A stretch of 36,639 bases of DNA from a virus: the IMG/VR virus record IMGVR_UViG_3300034104_001995, positions 1 through 36,639 of that record. One strand, written 5' to 3'. The notes beneath the pieces are model-generated. The model was not told where the DNA came from and made no database searches. It saw nothing but the letters and a program-made list of their open reading frames with translations. Shown in pieces: positions 2,083-32,823 of the stretch (positions are counted from its first letter, which is position 1; the number at the start of each line of letters is the position of its first letter). Both the position numbers and the translations under genes were made by a program.

Positions 2083-2901
2083 TCATTCATTGCCCTTTTG
2101 CAACCCAAAACCACACTTGCGGCAGTTCCAAACAATGTTGCCATGCTCACAACTCTTAGGTGGCTCTGAACTGACCTTCTGTTCATGCTCCAAGGCTTCC
2201 AACTTGCGTAAACGCTCTAGCTCCTTCAAACGCTCCTGACGGGCTTTCTCAGCCATCCTCGCCTCGTTTTGCAGTTCTTCCTTAGTTTTCTGTCTTTCAG
2301 GCAACGGAGCATCACCCCAACGATCACCATTCAACCAAGTGGTCGGGTAAGGAATAAACTCCAGCGGTGGAAGGTTAACATCATTGGCGTAACGAATAGC
2401 ACCAGCAAGGATGTCATCAAAGCTTGCTCTGCCCAACGCAGACTCAAACGCTTTACAGGCAGCACGTTTAGAAACCTTGCGTGGATAAACTCTCCAGAAA
2501 TCTTCAAAATGAGCATATAGGTTAATATATGTTTCTTTTAAAGGTTTGTGTGCCAGATCTGTCACCCCTGACTTACCCAGTCTGTCACCCCTGCTTACCT
2601 GATCTGTCACCCCTGCTGTCCAGTTTGTCACCCCTGGTAGAAGAATCCAATACTTGTTTGTCTTGTATTGACCACCCGAATCAGAGCCATTCACTTCAAC
2701 GCTAATCTCACCGATCTCTTGAAGATACTGCAAGTCCCGTTTGATAGATCTTTCGGATGCGTTGGCGTACCGAGCTAGGGTTGCGATTGACGGCCATGCA
2801 CCGTTATCGCCATGATGGTTCGCAATGCCTATCAAAACGAGTTTGGCTCGCCCATCAGCACGACTATTATTCAAAACAGCCGCTATCATCTCCACACTCA
2901 T
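2083..2901 (-). CDS. Replication initiator with winged-helix N-terminus (lambda O-like layout)
   Basis: The 272-residue protein starts MSVEMIAAVLNNS. Residues about 10-80 form a winged-helix/HTH domain (WPSIATLARYANASERSIKRDL), as in phage replisome organisers. A linker (about 88-115) is encoded by four iterons. A central segment FEDFWRVYPRKVSKRAACKAF, typical of phage replication proteins that contact the host helicase loader, is followed by a charged coiled coil (about 195-235) and a Cys/His tail (CEHGNIVWNCRKCGFG). ATG at 2901 was chosen over the TTG one codon earlier because of an AGGGGG site. The role inferred is to bind the in-gene iterons and recruit host replication proteins. Confidence 0.75.
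   Translation of the reverse strand: MSVEMIAAVLNNSRADGRAKLVLIGIANHHGDNGAWPSIATLARYANASERSIKRDLQYLQEIGEISVEVNGSDSGGQYKTNKYWILLPGVTNWTAGVTDQVSRGDRLGKSGVTDLAHKPLKETYINLYAHFEDFWRVYPRKVSKRAACKAFESALGRASFDDILAGAIRYANDVNLPPLEFIPYPTTWLNGDRWGDAPLPERQKTKEELQNEARMAEKARQERLKELERLRKLEALEHEQKVSSEPPKSCEHGNIVWNCRKCGFGLQKGNE
2501..2550. other. AT-rich stretch beside the iterons (possible DNA unwinding element)
   Basis: This stretch inside the initiator gene is visibly richer in A and T than its surroundings, including TTAATATATG and CTTTTAAAGG. It directly abuts the iteron array. In lambda ori an AT-rich region lies next to the O-binding iterons and melts first; the same role is proposed here by analogy. Confidence 0.5.
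2555..2640. repeat. Four iterons (replication origin candidate)
   Basis: The 10-mer GTCACCCCTG occurs at 2561, 2584, 2606 and 2627, a spacing of 23, 22 and 21 bp, or about two helical turns. Three of the four are preceded by TCT and the fourth by TTT. They encode the repeated GVT (GVTNWTAGVTDQ...SGVTDL) in the initiator linker. The position within the initiator gene, between the DNA-binding domain and the C-terminal half, mirrors lambda ori in O. Confidence 0.75.
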
Positions 2902-3925: not shown

Positions 3926-4493
3926 GAGTCTTACCCCAATCCTGGATCTTCGCCAACTTATCGGCACTCAAACCTGCTTCTTGCGCCTTCACAAAAGTTG
4001 CTCGCAAGCCTTCAATGTCACGATTGTAATACTGCTCACCAGCAAGAATGTAAAGCTTGTCATGGTCAGCCTTAGCACCTAACTCATAACTAAAAGAATC
4101 AGGGTCAGGCTCATCAGTAGGTAGGCACAACAACTGCAACAAGAAAGTCCTGTAAGCAACGCTCATAGCCTTAGCAGTAGCCTTATCGCCAGAATCCATA
4201 GCTTCAGCAGCAACAGTCCCAGTAATCGGATCACCCTCACTACCAAAAACCGAATAAGTGACCTGCAAGCGACAAATGTTCAACGAACCACCACTCTTAG
4301 TAGTTGCAACCGAAGTAGAAACATCAGTCACACTCGGAGTAATGAACCCACCATGCTTACGCAAAGCAGGGCCAACAACATTCATCACAGCATCAATGCC
4401 ACGAAAATTAAATCCCTGCGAAGTGTTCTTATCCTTCTTCGCCAGACCCTGGACTTCCTTCATAACCTCAACAACAAGTTCCCTAGCTTGCAT
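3912..4493 (-). CDS. erf: ERF-family single-strand annealing protein
   Basis: The 193-residue protein shows the ERF pattern: an N-terminal helix, then KNTSQGFNFRGIDAVMN at about residues 22-38, GPALRKHGGFITP, and the later ATAKAMSVAYRTFLLQ helix followed by LCLPTDEPDPD. ERF proteins form rings that anneal homologous single strands and support phage recombination or genome circularisation. The ATG at 4493 is in a TAATG overlap and has GGAG six bases upstream; the longer TTG frame is not needed. With the adjacent YqaJ exonuclease it forms a two-component recombination pair. Confidence 0.88.
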   Translation of the reverse strand: MQARELVVEVMKEVQGLAKKDKNTSQGFNFRGIDAVMNVVGPALRKHGGFITPSVTDVSTSVATTKSGGSLNICRLQVTYSVFGSEGDPITGTVAAEAMDSGDKATAKAMSVAYRTFLLQLLCLPTDEPDPDSFSYELGAKADHDKLYILAGEQYYNRDIEGLRATFVKAQEAGLSADKLAKIQDWGKTLGNS

Positions 4494-27146: not shown

Positions 27147-27474
27147 ACACACTCCAAGACTCGTAGTTGACTTGTGCAACAAGCCTAACACCTAAAAAGG
27201 TTTGAACTGCTACTTTGCACAAAGACTCAGGACAGGGGTGTCGGGATCTTGGCGTGTGCCAGAATTTAGTCCACTCCTCCCCTAGTGTTTTGGCTGTTGT
27301 GTGTGTTTTAGGCCTGTTGTAAGGCTCTAGGCGGGCTTTTAGCTGGCCTTGTGTGTGTCTGTATGGTCTTGAGGTTGCGGGCTTCTGTGAGCCTTTTAGG
27401 GCTGTTTCTGAGGGTAAAGCTAAACCCGCCTAATCTCTAGGGACTAAGCGGGTAGCTTGTGGATAAGTTAGAGC
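27147..27474. other. Gene-free stretch upstream of terS
   Basis: No frame with a normal start is convincing. One minus-strand frame stays open for about 90 codons to a TAA at the terS start but has no ATG or GTG start and an improbable composition. The part 27280-27420 is rich in TGTGTG runs and CTAGGCGGG words. A terminator-like hairpin lies at 27419-27456. A packaging site (cos or pac) next to terS would be expected near here, but I cannot identify one. Confidence 0.5.
27419..27456 (-). terminator. Possible weak terminator after the 27475 gene
   Basis: Minus-strand reading: GCTACCCGC, an 18-nt loop, GCGGGTTTAGC, then TTTACC. The stem is CCCGC with GCGGG plus an outer GCTA/TAGC separated by a bulge. 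It shares its CCCGCC/GGCGGG word with the stronger terminator at 27954. It could separate the accessory region from the terminase operon. Confidence 0.45.
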
Positions 27475-27771
27475 TTAGAAAGTCAAGTCCATATCCTTTC
27501 TAACCTGTGCCATTAGCTCGCTGTAAGCTTTGCTAGCTCTCCAGAGCTTGCGGTCTAGAGCTGTGTCTATCTCTAGAAGCTGGCTAATTCTGGCGTGGCG
27601 GTCTGAAACTCTTTTGACTGCCTCAAAATCGCCTAGCTGTGTCTGTACCGCCTGAGACCTCTCTAAATTTCTTAGCTTCAGCTCTAGGGCTGTTATGTGG
27701 TCTAATGCCATTTCTTGAAGTAGCGCTAGCTCTGCTTCTGTTAGCTCTAGCTTTATTGTTGCCTGTGTCAT
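27475..27771 (-). CDS. Hypothetical coiled-coil protein (98 aa)
   Basis: The protein MTQATIKLELTEAELALLQE continues as long charged helices with Leu heptads and ends QVRKDMDLTF. GGGAGC precedes the ATG, and a TTGACT/TAAACT promoter lies 53-82 bp upstream, so it forms a one-gene unit between two terminators. AGCT is strikingly frequent in its DNA, partly through Glu-Leu codons. Function unknown. Confidence 0.6.
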   Translation of the reverse strand: MTQATIKLELTEAELALLQEMALDHITALELKLRNLERSQAVQTQLGDFEAVKRVSDRHARISQLLEIDTALDRKLWRASKAYSELMAQVRKDMDLTF

Positions 27772-27823
27772 TTTGTAGCTCCCTTTTTGTCCTGTGATAG
27801 CTGGCGGTTGCCTAGCTGTGTCC

Positions 27824-27853
27824 AGTTTAGAGCTGTGAGCTTGTTTTAGTCAA
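27824..27853 (-). promoter_or_regulatory. Sigma-70-like promoter for the 27475 gene
   Basis: Minus strand: -35 TTGACT (27848-27853), 18-bp spacer, -10 TAAACT (27824-27829). The -35 box is identical to that of the promoter at 896-925 and the spacer is the same length. Confidence 0.55.
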
Positions 27854-27953
27854 GCTTGAAACGCTAAATCTTTAGAGGCCTTTATTTAGGCGGGCTTCAG
27901 GCGTGTCTTATGATCCTGTGAAACCCTCAAAGCGCAGCTAAAACCGCATAGCA

Positions 27954-27987
27954 AAACCCGCCTAACTGTGTGAGCTTAGGCGGGTTT
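27954..27987. terminator. Strong bidirectional terminator
   Basis: A perfect 12-bp inverted repeat AAACCCGCCTAA / TTAGGCGGGTTT with a 10-nt loop lies 20 bp after the 28007 stop. It would end the accessory transcript coming from the right and has T-rich flanks suited to both directions. Confidence 0.85.
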
Positions 27988-28006
27988 AGGTGAGCTTCAG
28001 AGAGCT

Positions 28007-28237
28007 TTAGGGTTGCTCCAGAGCTTCTAGTAGAGCTACAAGCTGGCGGGCTATCCAGTTAGGCACGCCTAGCGCTTCTAAGTCCTCAGCTTCAAGTTCG
28101 TTAGCTGTGTAATCTCCGCAACCAAAGCGGACACATATCCAAGCTAAACCCTCGCTGTCCTCTGTGGACATATTTGGAAACATGAAGTCGCCACATTGAC
28201 AAATTAGGACATTTCTGAAATCAAATCTAGAAGCCAT
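28007..28237 (-). CDS. Hypothetical cysteine-containing protein (76 aa)
   Basis: The protein MASRFDFRNVLICQCGDFMF contains CxC near residue 13, then WICVRFGCGDYT with two more cysteines and a Glu/Leu-rich helical end (EAEDLEALGVPNW, ARQLVALLEALEQP). Four cysteines could form one zinc site. It overlaps the tiny membrane gene upstream and is the last gene before the strong terminator. Function unknown. Confidence 0.6.
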   Translation of the reverse strand: MASRFDFRNVLICQCGDFMFPNMSTEDSEGLAWICVRFGCGDYTANELEAEDLEALGVPNWIARQLVALLEALEQP

Positions 28238-28334
28238 AAATAACCCTGCCTAACTGAGCTAGTAACCAAGTAAGGCCATAAACCAAACCAATACCAGAAA
28301 CCAGAAACAAAAACCCTTTCAGCGTTTCACTCAT
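28227..28334 (-). CDS. Very small membrane protein (35 aa)
   Basis: The frame reads MSETLKGFLFLVSGIGLVYG and ends LAQLGRVIYGF. It is essentially one membrane helix with a short polar head. It overlaps the genes on both sides by about 8-11 nt, as typical in this region. It may be a membrane micropeptide that modifies host functions; no homology claimed. Confidence 0.5.
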   Translation of the reverse strand: MSETLKGFLFLVSGIGLVYGLTWLLAQLGRVIYGF

Positions 28335-28467
28335 TAGTTTCAGCTCTCAGCTCTGTAATAGCTTCCAGAAAGTCGTAATATCCCTCAGCTAGCTTTAGCT
28401 CCGCTTCTTCTAAGCTTTCAGCTTCAACTGAAACAAGCTCACCAGTTATAAATTCGTAAATTGCCAT
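28327..28467 (-). CDS. Small acidic protein (46 aa)
   Basis: From MAIYEFITGELVSVEAESLEEA the protein is acidic, with a beta start and helical rest. The pattern (a strand, then SLEEAELKLAEG) resembles that of the product at 31753-31950 (ADTIEEAQIYW). The start at 28467 is preceded by AAAGGGAA; the longer upstream frame overlaps the neighbouring gene. Function unknown. Confidence 0.55.
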   Translation of the reverse strand: MAIYEFITGELVSVEAESLEEAELKLAEGYYDFLEAITELRAETNE

Positions 28468-28471
28468 TTTG

Positions 28472-28819
28472 TTATTTCCCTTTCTTGAATAGCTCTGACT
28501 TTTTGCCATAGCTAATAACACTATACACAGTTAGCTCTAAAATTCTCGCAATTTGCCAAACTGGATATTCTCTTGTTGGTCTGTCGCTTCCATGCTGAAA
28601 TAAAGTTTCAGGCAACAAACCAAGCTCCACAAGCTCCCCTATTGCTGAAGCTTCATAAGCGTTTTCATATCCGTGACGCATTGGAATAATAGCCAAAACA
28701 TTACCATTGAGCCAAATTCTTACGCTGTGATAAGTGTTTCCGTTGATCCCGTCAAACCAAGCTCTACCCTCAAAAAACAAGCTTGAACCCTTAGCGACTT
28801 GTTCATAATCTTTAGACAT
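28472..28819 (-). CDS. Hypothetical protein (115 aa)
   Basis: The first half is beta-rich (GSSLFFEGRAWFDGINGNTY, HSVRIWLNGNVLAIIPMRHGY) and the second helical, ending with a Lys-rich tail (GKKSELFKKGK). Similar proteins with the SVRIWLNG and MRYGY-like pattern occur in phages of actinobacteria, to my recollection, without known role. GGAGCAAAG precedes the ATG, and the start overlaps the coiled-coil gene upstream by 8 nt. Confidence 0.62.
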   Translation of the reverse strand: MSKDYEQVAKGSSLFFEGRAWFDGINGNTYHSVRIWLNGNVLAIIPMRHGYENAYEASAIGELVELGLLPETLFQHGSDRPTREYPVWQIARILELTVYSVISYGKKSELFKKGK

Positions 28820-28979
28820 TTTCTTTGCTCCCTTTTAGTAGTTGAATGTTGCTGTTTATAGACATGATGTACTCTTCTTGCTCTCTGAGCTTCTTCTCTA
28901 ACTCTCTAATCTGATAGAAAGTGTTTAGTTGCTCTTTGATAGCGTAAGCCTGTTCAAGCTCTAAGCTCTCTAGCTCCAT
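28812..28979 (-). CDS. Small coiled-coil protein (55 aa)
   Basis: Translation gives MELESLELEQAYAIKEQLNT, then RELEKKLREQEEYIMS and a hydrophilic end. It is a nearly continuous heptad helix. GGGAGAAG precedes the ATG. It is the first gene downstream of the composite repeat array and AT-rich region, so its mRNA may begin near 29.07 kb. Confidence 0.55.
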   Translation of the reverse strand: MELESLELEQAYAIKEQLNTFYQIRELEKKLREQEEYIMSINSNIQLLKGSKENV

Positions 28980-29194
28980 TTTGCTTCTCCCTTTTTCTTG
29001 TGTTAGCTAACTTTTGCTAGCTTCAACTAATCTAAACACAAACTAGCCAAATCTAGCTAGCTTTTTTGATAACTTTTTTATAAATAATCGTTATAAAGCT
29101 TGAACACATTTTTCAGCGTTTCCCTGTAAGCTGTCGCACATTACAGAGAGGACATAATCGCAGCTAACTTTATTTAGAACCAATTACATATTTT
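28980..29194. promoter_or_regulatory. AT-rich leader between the repeat array and the 28979 gene
   Basis: No gene is seen. Bases 29062-29096 are almost wholly A/T (TTTTTTATAAATAATC). On the minus strand a -10 TATAAA (29077-29082) and a weak -35 TTCAAG (29099-29104) are 16 bp apart and could start leftward transcription. Several GCTAGC/AGCT palindromes follow. The AT-rich part next to a repeat array is also what an origin would look like. Confidence 0.4.
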
Positions 29195-29313
29195 GAGCTG
29201 GTCGAGCTGGCTGAGCTGGTCGAGCTGGCTGAGCTGGTCGAGCTGGCTGAGCTGGTCGAGCTGGCTGAGCTGGTCGAGCTGGCTGAGCTGGTCGAGCTGG
29301 CTGAGCTGGTCGA
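29195..29313. repeat. 18-bp tandem repeat (6.6 copies)
   Basis: GAGCTGGTCGAGCTGGCT repeats six times without error from 29195 to 29302, followed by 11 further bases. Each unit is two 9-bp halves differing at the last two bases. The repeat opens artificial reading frames (Ser/Ala/Thr or Trp/Ser/Leu repeats), which I do not regard as genes. It passes directly into the 5-bp and 11-bp phased repeats. Confidence 0.95.
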
Positions 29314-29430
29314 ACCGAACCAGACCGAACCGAACCAGATCTCAACCAGATTATGACCAGAATATGACCAAAATCTGACCAAGATCTGACCAAATAGCAA
29401 CCAGATTTTGACCAGATTTTGACCAAATTA
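29312..29430. repeat. 5-bp then 11-bp phased ACC repeats
   Basis: ACC trinucleotides occur at 29314, 29319, 29324, 29329 and 29334 (every 5 bp), then at 29345, 29356, 29367, 29378, 29389, 29400, 29411 and 29422 (every 11 bp, no exception). The 11-bp unit is approximately ACCAGATTTTG. It ends at the stop codon of the 29428 gene. Exact one-turn phasing suggests a protein filament or multimer bound on one face of the DNA. Confidence 0.92.
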
Positions 29431-29793
29431 GTCTGTATGCGGTTGATGACCAGCCAAAGTAAAGTTATCGCAGTCCCATTCACCATAAACCGCTTTACGG
29501 ATAGAAATAACTCCAACTGGAATTTCTGACCGAATTTGTTTCATAGCTTCAACAATGTTATCTGCCCAAACCATGTCATAAAGGCTACTATCGCCACCAA
29601 AAAAGCCACAAGCTCCAAGCCCATAAACATAACAGTTATCTTTCTTCATGTTTTTAGGAAATGTGTCTGGATCATAAGGGTTGATTACATGATCGTAAAA
29701 CAGATTAGAGCAAGTCAAACACATATGAGCTTCTTCTAGCCAAATCTCAAGATCCATAGAAACATTACAGTAAATACACTTTTCCAATTTCAT
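29428..29793 (-). CDS. Hypothetical zinc-ribbon protein (121 aa)
   Basis: The N-terminus [15 protein letters not shown] and [13 protein letters not shown] provide two CxxC pairs about 17 residues apart, a classical zinc ribbon. The middle has a Gly/Cys-rich part ([15 protein letters not shown]) and the end [18 protein letters not shown]. The family is unknown to me. GGAAAG stands before the ATG. Its stop is the exact edge of the 11-bp repeat array, so the array may have grown up to the gene. Confidence 0.65.
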
Positions 29794-32177: not shown

Positions 32178-32220
32178 GAACATTTTTAGGTTTCGTTATA
32201 AATCCGTTATAAACGCCAAA

Positions 32221-32250
32221 AACCCCCTAGCGGACAAAAACTAGGGGGTT
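32221..32250. terminator. Strong bidirectional terminator before the accessory promoter
   Basis: Perfect inverted repeat AACCCCCTAG / CTAGGGGGTT with a 10-nt loop; the minus-strand copy is followed by TTTTTGG. It ends the long transcript that comes from the 36-kb side through methyltransferase, hydrolase and HNH genes. Confidence 0.9.
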
Positions 32251-32278
32251 AGGCGTGTTATCTGGTGTCGGGTATCGC

Positions 32279-32331
32279 AACCGAACTTAGAACCAAATAA
32301 CCAAAACTGTTTCAACCAAATTCTAACCGAA
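32279..32331. repeat. Cluster of five AACCRAA words
   Basis: AACC(A/G)AA occurs at 32279, 32291, 32299, 32314 and 32325, all in the same direction, in the gap between the HNH stop and the terminator. It resembles the phased repeats at 29312-29430 without strict periodicity. Confidence 0.8.
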
Positions 32332-32333
32332 TC

Positions 32334-32666
32334 TTAGCTCAACGGTTTGTTGCCACGCTTTTCGTTACAGCTTTTATGTGCTGGTAGCAGTATCGCATTA
32401 GAACCAGATTCCCCAGCGTTAGCGTGATCAGCAACCCAAGGATCGCTAAACCTAGCACCCCCATTACACAAATGACATACCAAGGCAGTTTCACGAACCA
32501 ATTTAGCTCTCTTGCGATAATCACCAGAATACTGTCCCGTCATTTTCTTTATTGCTGCCCTTTTAGCGTTATGCAGATCTGTAACCAGATTTTCATGTGT
32601 AACGCAACGATTAGAACCAGAAGTCAGCTCACCGCAATCTAGGCAGGGTTTAGGGAATCTACCCAT
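32334..32666 (-). CDS. HNH endonuclease (110 aa)
   Basis: The protein MGRFPKPCLDCGELTSGSNRC is followed by LVCHLCNGG, DPWVADHANAGESGSNAILL and AHKSCNEKRGNKPLS. Two CxxC pairs, the DH of the catalytic His and the final AH..CN..RG form a complete HNH motif. The start overlaps the stop of the small membrane protein upstream. Small HNH proteins can act in packaging with terminase or as free-standing mobile nucleases; here it is far from terminase on the map. Confidence 0.82.
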   Translation of the reverse strand: MGRFPKPCLDCGELTSGSNRCVTHENLVTDLHNAKRAAIKKMTGQYSGDYRKRAKLVRETALVCHLCNGGARFSDPWVADHANAGESGSNAILLPAHKSCNEKRGNKPLS

Positions 32667-32823
32667 TAGGTTTCTCGCAGTTGCTGATAGCTTCAAATTC
32701 GGTGTGGTATTTATCCCAACAATTTTCAACCGAATTTTGACCGAAGAAACTGAATATTCCAACCAAAATAACGACAACTAGAATACCGTTGATTACAACC
32801 AAAATTTTCTCAAATAATCTCAT
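32659..32823 (-). CDS. Small membrane protein downstream of the NlpC/P60 gene (54 aa)
   Basis: The frame gives MRLFEKILVVINGILVVVIL followed by VGIFSFFGQ, one long membrane helix, then an exterior-type part with two cysteines (NCWDKY, SNCEK). It overlaps the hydrolase stop (ATGA) and the HNH start. A membrane protein next to a secreted cell-wall enzyme could assist its action, which is inference. Its DNA contains AACCRAA words phased by 11 and 22 bp. Confidence 0.6.
   Translation of the reverse strand: MRLFEKILVVINGILVVVILVGIFSFFGQNSVENCWDKYHTEFEAISNCEKPNG

Follow-up and report, generated by a model that had tools for sequence, protein, structure and literature searches.

The stretch of DNA analysed here (hereafter the window) is the 36,639 bp virus record IMGVR_UViG_3300034104_001995 from IMG/VR. 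A gene for a 121-aa protein on its minus strand (29428–29793) terminates with TAA at 29428–29430, and a composite repeat array directly abuts this stop codon. Counting from the stop codon, the array consists of eight 11-bp units that read (A/T)T(C/T)(C/T)GGT(C/T) in the sense direction of transcription (29339–29428, minus strand), a short part with 5-bp steps, reading GGTTC/GGTCT on the sense strand (29314–29338, minus strand), and 6.7 identical 18-bp units (GAGCTGGTCGAGCTGGCT, 29194–29313, 100% match), the 5-bp part linking the two others. The ACC trinucleotides follow each other at 29314, 29319, 29324, 29329 and 29334 with step 5 and at 29345, 29356, 29367, 29378, 29389, 29400, 29411 and 29422 with step 11, without a slip. 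These re-measured coordinates agree with the exact periods of 18, 5 and 11 bp and with the contact to the stop codon given in the initial annotation, and the ACCAG core does change strand as described there: on the plus strand, GGT recurs at 18-bp intervals from 29200 to 29308. It was overlooked there that the 11-bp units lie on the sense strand of minus-strand genes; given the minus-strand orientation of the nearby genes, the order in the transcript is TGGTC at 11-nt intervals, GGTTC-type words at 5-nt intervals and finally GACCAGCTCAGCCAGCTC. The AT-rich stretch adjoining the array (29000–29190) forms the leader of the genes that follow. A pattern of two units was observed eight times in the window, with 0.02 expected, and is confined to 29.3, 32.3–32.7 and 35.8 kb. 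A second IMG/VR contig, 3300042507_002951 (8,420 bp), contains the region with 100% identity over 2,009 bp and an equal copy number, which makes the assembly artefact considered earlier unlikely. Pfam and PHROGs searches with the 121-aa protein returned no match, and its predicted structure (mean pLDDT 54) was too poor for a structure search; relatives of the gene with the ...GHxPH end have the same array behind the stop codon.

A second array, also overlooked in the initial annotation, begins 2 nt past the stop codon of an HNH-type endonuclease gene (32334–32777, minus strand), the identity of which rests on the motif DPW.ADH...H..CN..RGNK, no match being found in Pfam; the start of the gene in relatives corresponds to residue 38. 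The units of this array (32290–32332, minus strand) are separated by steps of 11, 15 and 8 bp, and the same order was found in G004 and G034. The last unit is included in a covarying RNA hairpin (32257–32301, minus strand) composed of the stems P1 (GUUAUUUGGU/ACCAGAUAAC) and P2 (UCGG/CCGA) and the loop UUGYGAUAC, where 19 cells are changed on both sides, a value that none of 500 shuffles reached; in G006 (L329) the stem is kept with different letters (GUAAAGGG/CCCUUUAC). An intrinsic-terminator hairpin (32218–32249, minus strand) follows past the array, and the two-stem hairpin with the succeeding terminator is also present behind the HNH gene in L316–L329; an Rfam search found no match. Two or more motif units are also contained within a short coding gene that precedes HNH (32727–32745 in the window, 3125–3178 in L014), which may be a coding coincidence.

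The large terminase is 59% identical to its counterpart in Pontimonas phage phiPsal1, and for phiC31-type phages the identity is about 37%; the window represents an actinobacterial siphophage of the phiC31/phiPsal1 type. Genes recognised with Pfam and/or PHROGs encode a RecE-like exonuclease, ERF, RusA, an O-like initiator, two DNA methyltransferases and an NlpC/P60 protein; among the proteins scanned, none was recognised as an integrase, a partition motor or a repressor. The repeat search located 22-bp iterons (CAGGGGTGACA..., 2553–2636, minus strand) inside the O-like replication initiator gene (2083–2904); iterons of 21–22 bp in this gene are conserved in 12 of 14 relatives, and those of the window are a probable lambda-style origin. 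The contigs of many relatives start about 517 bp ahead of the terminase gene, and since the region 27192–27227 matches the extreme end of several relatives' contigs, the cohesive end can be placed near 27227, leaving about 2 kb between the array and the right end. In the interval 27190–29190 of the window, AGCT is about seven times as frequent as in the remaining genome, in coding and non-coding DNA alike, and GCTAGC was counted 10 times on both strands versus 0 elsewhere; a moderate rise was also noted in G027 and G003.

Searches in related DNA revealed a family of 22 such arrays with 146 AT[TC][TC]GGT[CT] units in total, located on more than a dozen phage contigs and placed in the sense direction of the gene; the consensus of the units is AAWTYYGGTYRRAA and the short word common to them is TYYGGTY. 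Clusters of four units were found 45 times in 1.2 Mb of related DNA and never in an order-1 Markov copy, the figure of 45 being an overcount because the loci overlap one another; the relatives that enter the array counts are likewise not independent. Most arrays begin 0–10 nt past a stop codon, and they occur behind at least four unrelated gene families, namely the ...GHxPH gene, the HNH gene and at least two more. All of them are sense-oriented, which is weak evidence since all neighbouring genes run one way. Clusters in the window are restricted to the right arm, and several genomes have two arrays each. The search with the HNH family yielded 76 loci, with arrays behind the gene in the clade of the window and its neighbours; the longer arrays behind related HNH genes contain from 3 to 11 units, and copy number differs at one site between L324 and L327. 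The array is missing where the HNH gene sits near the genome end, and in phiPsal1, the nearest isolate, the HNH gene is present and the array is absent. In G014 (L113, about 3980–4060) a tRNA-like sequence separates the HNH stop codon from the array. Irregular GGTT-rich tracts directly behind hairpins were noticed in L027 (2805), L031 (7880) and L032 (6825), and the genes ahead of them seem to be distantly related to the 121-aa gene.

No such array was found in 394 other Actinomycetes genomes, and the array thus looks like a phage feature. A host element was considered and rejected, the sole match being a chance-like CCGGTCCG repeat in the Streptomyces genome used as the centre of the comparison; among the matches listed in a pattern scan of bacterial genomes, there were scattered occurrences in unrelated organisms. 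Wider pattern matches in other phages, judged by eye to be repeats inside replication genes, were set aside. No description of such arrays was found in open-licence papers.

The GGT core is mutated in about one of 147 units, an invariance that is partly built in because the core served to find the arrays, and the adjacent pyrimidines vary between C and T. Of 144 units, 107 have CA (75) or TG (32) as the two bases after GGT (Y5R6), a proportion reached in none of 5,000 within-array shuffles, and TA (13) and CG (4) are rare; this linkage, like the resemblances to Fis sites and polymerase pauses discussed below, was noticed after looking at the data. It favours a reading of the unit as DNA, since CA and TG, as the two strands of a single double-stranded DNA step, are equivalent there and not in RNA. 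The step between units is 11 bp in 113 of 186 cases, 13 bp in 22 and 15 bp in 12; among the steps other than 11 within the range of 9–17 bp, 43 are odd and 4 even, and the four even ones (10–16 bp) belong to the irregular array L331 and to L329, in a stretch that overlaps a coding sequence. The almost exclusively odd spacing (11, 13, 15) is a puzzle that any binding model must account for. In the initial annotation, the phasing by one helical turn had been taken to place a protein multimer along one face of the DNA, and random copy numbers with loss of the 11-bp phase would have spoken for ordinary slippage. The phasing is borne out by the 113 steps of 11 bp but not by the 13- and 15-bp steps, which are common in relatives; copy number is indeed free, whereas the core and the spacing rule are kept.

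Beyond the window, the 18-bp part was found, among 2.9 million viral contigs, only in the near-identical contig L006, and the relatives possess the 11-bp part and lack the 18-bp one. Its distribution marks it as private to one lineage, and the identity of the units indicates a young addition. It looks like the product of a recent expansion, at this site, of a GACCAGCTC/AGCCAGCTC element; it does not have to be functional and may be plain slippage.

As for the DNA behind the arrays, the strongest hairpin within 180 nt has a median energy of -17.7 kcal/mol, compared with a random-window median of -12.3 kcal/mol (p=1.7e-5). A terminator-like hairpin was seen in about half of the cases, and a strict test for a T-run was passed by 4 of 23. 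Palindromes resembling the actinobacterial LexA (SOS) box, e.g., CGAACAGGTGTTCG, are present downstream of the arrays in L308, L309, L306, L311 and L312.

Several phage and plasmid systems can be compared with these arrays. According to two publications, stoperators are short asymmetric sites with genome-specific variants, oriented mostly in one direction relative to transcription (PMC6550527; PMC9283540). Like the arrays, the stoperators of cluster A mycobacteriophages (L5, Bxb1) are short asymmetric sites repeated in one genome and predominantly in one direction, and in behaviour they are the closest known counterpart. At the same time, they are 13-bp sites spread genome-wide, whereas the arrays form tandem rows right after stop codons in the right arm, and because of this tandem layout and right-arm restriction the arrays were not classed as stoperators. 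The stoperator sequence, compared by eye, looks unrelated to the unit TYYGGTYR, and stoperators are bound by the phage repressor and block elongation, while a repressor gene was not recognised in the proteins scanned here. The start-associated sequences of cluster K and the 17-bp repeats of cluster O mycobacteriophages are also short, with several copies in gene gaps, and the function of the latter is unknown (PMC4351075); the former are tied to translation starts and the latter are single dyads, unlike the tandem arrays at gene ends. Rows of 11-bp direct repeats make up parC, the centromere of plasmid R1 (type II partition). This centromere has linked motor and adaptor genes, whereas the arrays had none in the scan and stand behind several different genes.

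Taken as a pattern, these features suggest that the arrays are rows of tandem, same-direction sites in double-stranded DNA for a DNA-binding protein that acts on transcription at the end of an operon, a tentative reading to which we assign a probability of roughly 0.45. The site would be (A/T)T(C/T)(C/T)GGT followed by CA or TG, and the row would sit between the stop codon of the operon-final gene in the right arm and a terminator or the control region of the next operon. A sequence-specific protein would load along the row, many molecules side by side, and, once loaded, would help to halt or gate transcription where the operon ends, comparable to what the cluster A stoperators do with single sites. 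We infer both the binding and the action on transcription; as for the identity of the binder, no gene family was found that all array carriers share and non-carriers lack. A protein-binding array with multiple sites, as proposed in the initial annotation, is still the best reading, and of the roles it listed, transcription control is the most likely. A further step, on which we would put odds clearly against, is that a protein assembles on TYYGGTYR rows of odd spacing behind stop codons, reused at several operon ends, as a new phage control element.

The main alternative without a bound protein is a row of tandem RNA polymerase pause sites, since each exact 11-bp step also sets G-10 Y-1 G+1, the elemental pause consensus (PMC9291695), and pausing would slow the polymerase past the stop codon, resulting in efficient termination. 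The arrays are positioned ahead of hairpins, as would be expected, and contain 6.4 consensus matches per 100 nt versus 2.95 in the same loci overall, a 2.2-fold enrichment that the motif and the 11-bp spacing entail. Pausing nevertheless leaves unexplained the invariant T after GG, the CA/TG linkage, the 13- and 15-bp steps and the strict pyrimidine at -2, a position at which the fuller pause consensus prefers G; moreover, a 10-bp step would do equally well, yet it is almost absent, and this explanation is unlikely. It is also possible to imagine the array as an upstream regulatory element for the promoter of the next operon, with curved DNA, A-tracts and a bound protein about 100–200 bp upstream activating it, as Fis sites do upstream of strong promoters. 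One common pair of adjacent units reads GGTCAAAATTTGGTC, which by inspection coincides with the Fis consensus GNTYAAAWTTTRANC (PMC6907758) in 14 of 15 positions, and some candidate promoters with TTGACA lie 110–160 bp past the array. The distance of these promoter-like sites is not fixed, however, and they are absent in many cases; the start of the array is tied to the stop codon, a hairpin often intervenes, and the C at the right end of the Fis consensus is T in about 40% of the array units. Fis is not known from Actinobacteria, and we consider such upstream activation quite unlikely.

Ordinary slippage DNA, i.e., neutral minisatellites growing in the free space between the stop codon and the terminator, would account for the free copy number at one site (3 to 11 units; L324 versus L327) and for the identical 18-bp units of a single lineage. 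It is a good reading of the 18-bp part and a poor one of the 11-bp part, where one motif recurs behind unrelated genes, the core is fixed while its neighbours vary, and odd steps outnumber even ones 43 to 4, although slips of a single A should yield 12 and 14; as a general explanation it has a small chance. A role of the units as RNA within the 3' untranslated region, by self-pairing or by binding a protein or Rho, is suggested by the unit being a G-U wobble palindrome, by the folding of the array plus the 18-bp part at -88 kcal/mol (z -4.05) and by the covarying HNH 3' hairpin, which takes in the last units. Column-permuted arrays fold equally well, however (z about 0, 15 arrays), and pairing-type covariation inside the units is absent; both being no better than chance, self-pairing was rejected, and an RNA role as a whole seems very improbable. 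Rho utilisation sites are C-rich, G-poor RNA with YC dimers 9–13 nt apart (PMC9160355), and C is less frequent than G in each of the 22 arrays, so that such a site was rejected too. The remaining suggestions, a centromere-like partition site, a replication origin, a packaging site or a Chi-like recombination signal, draw on the location of the arrays in the right arm, about 1–5 kb from the cohesive end and in one direction, and on the 11-bp direct repeats that occur in type II centromeres. They fit the genome badly and hardly deserve credence: no ParA, ParM, TubZ or adaptor gene was found among the proteins scanned (sense-strand ORFs of at least 200 aa, Pfam and/or PHROGs), the GC skew keeps its sign at the array and the iterons of a lambda-type origin are within the initiator gene and not at the array, and the cohesive end is 2 kb off, with two arrays in several genomes. 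The partition, second-origin and packaging roles listed in the initial annotation were accordingly dropped.

Phages of aquatic Microbacteriaceae-like hosts have been little studied. If the reading of the arrays as rows of protein-binding sites is true, these conserved rows at operon ends would be a way in which such phages partition their transcription, and the rows themselves would offer a lead to the protein that recognises them.
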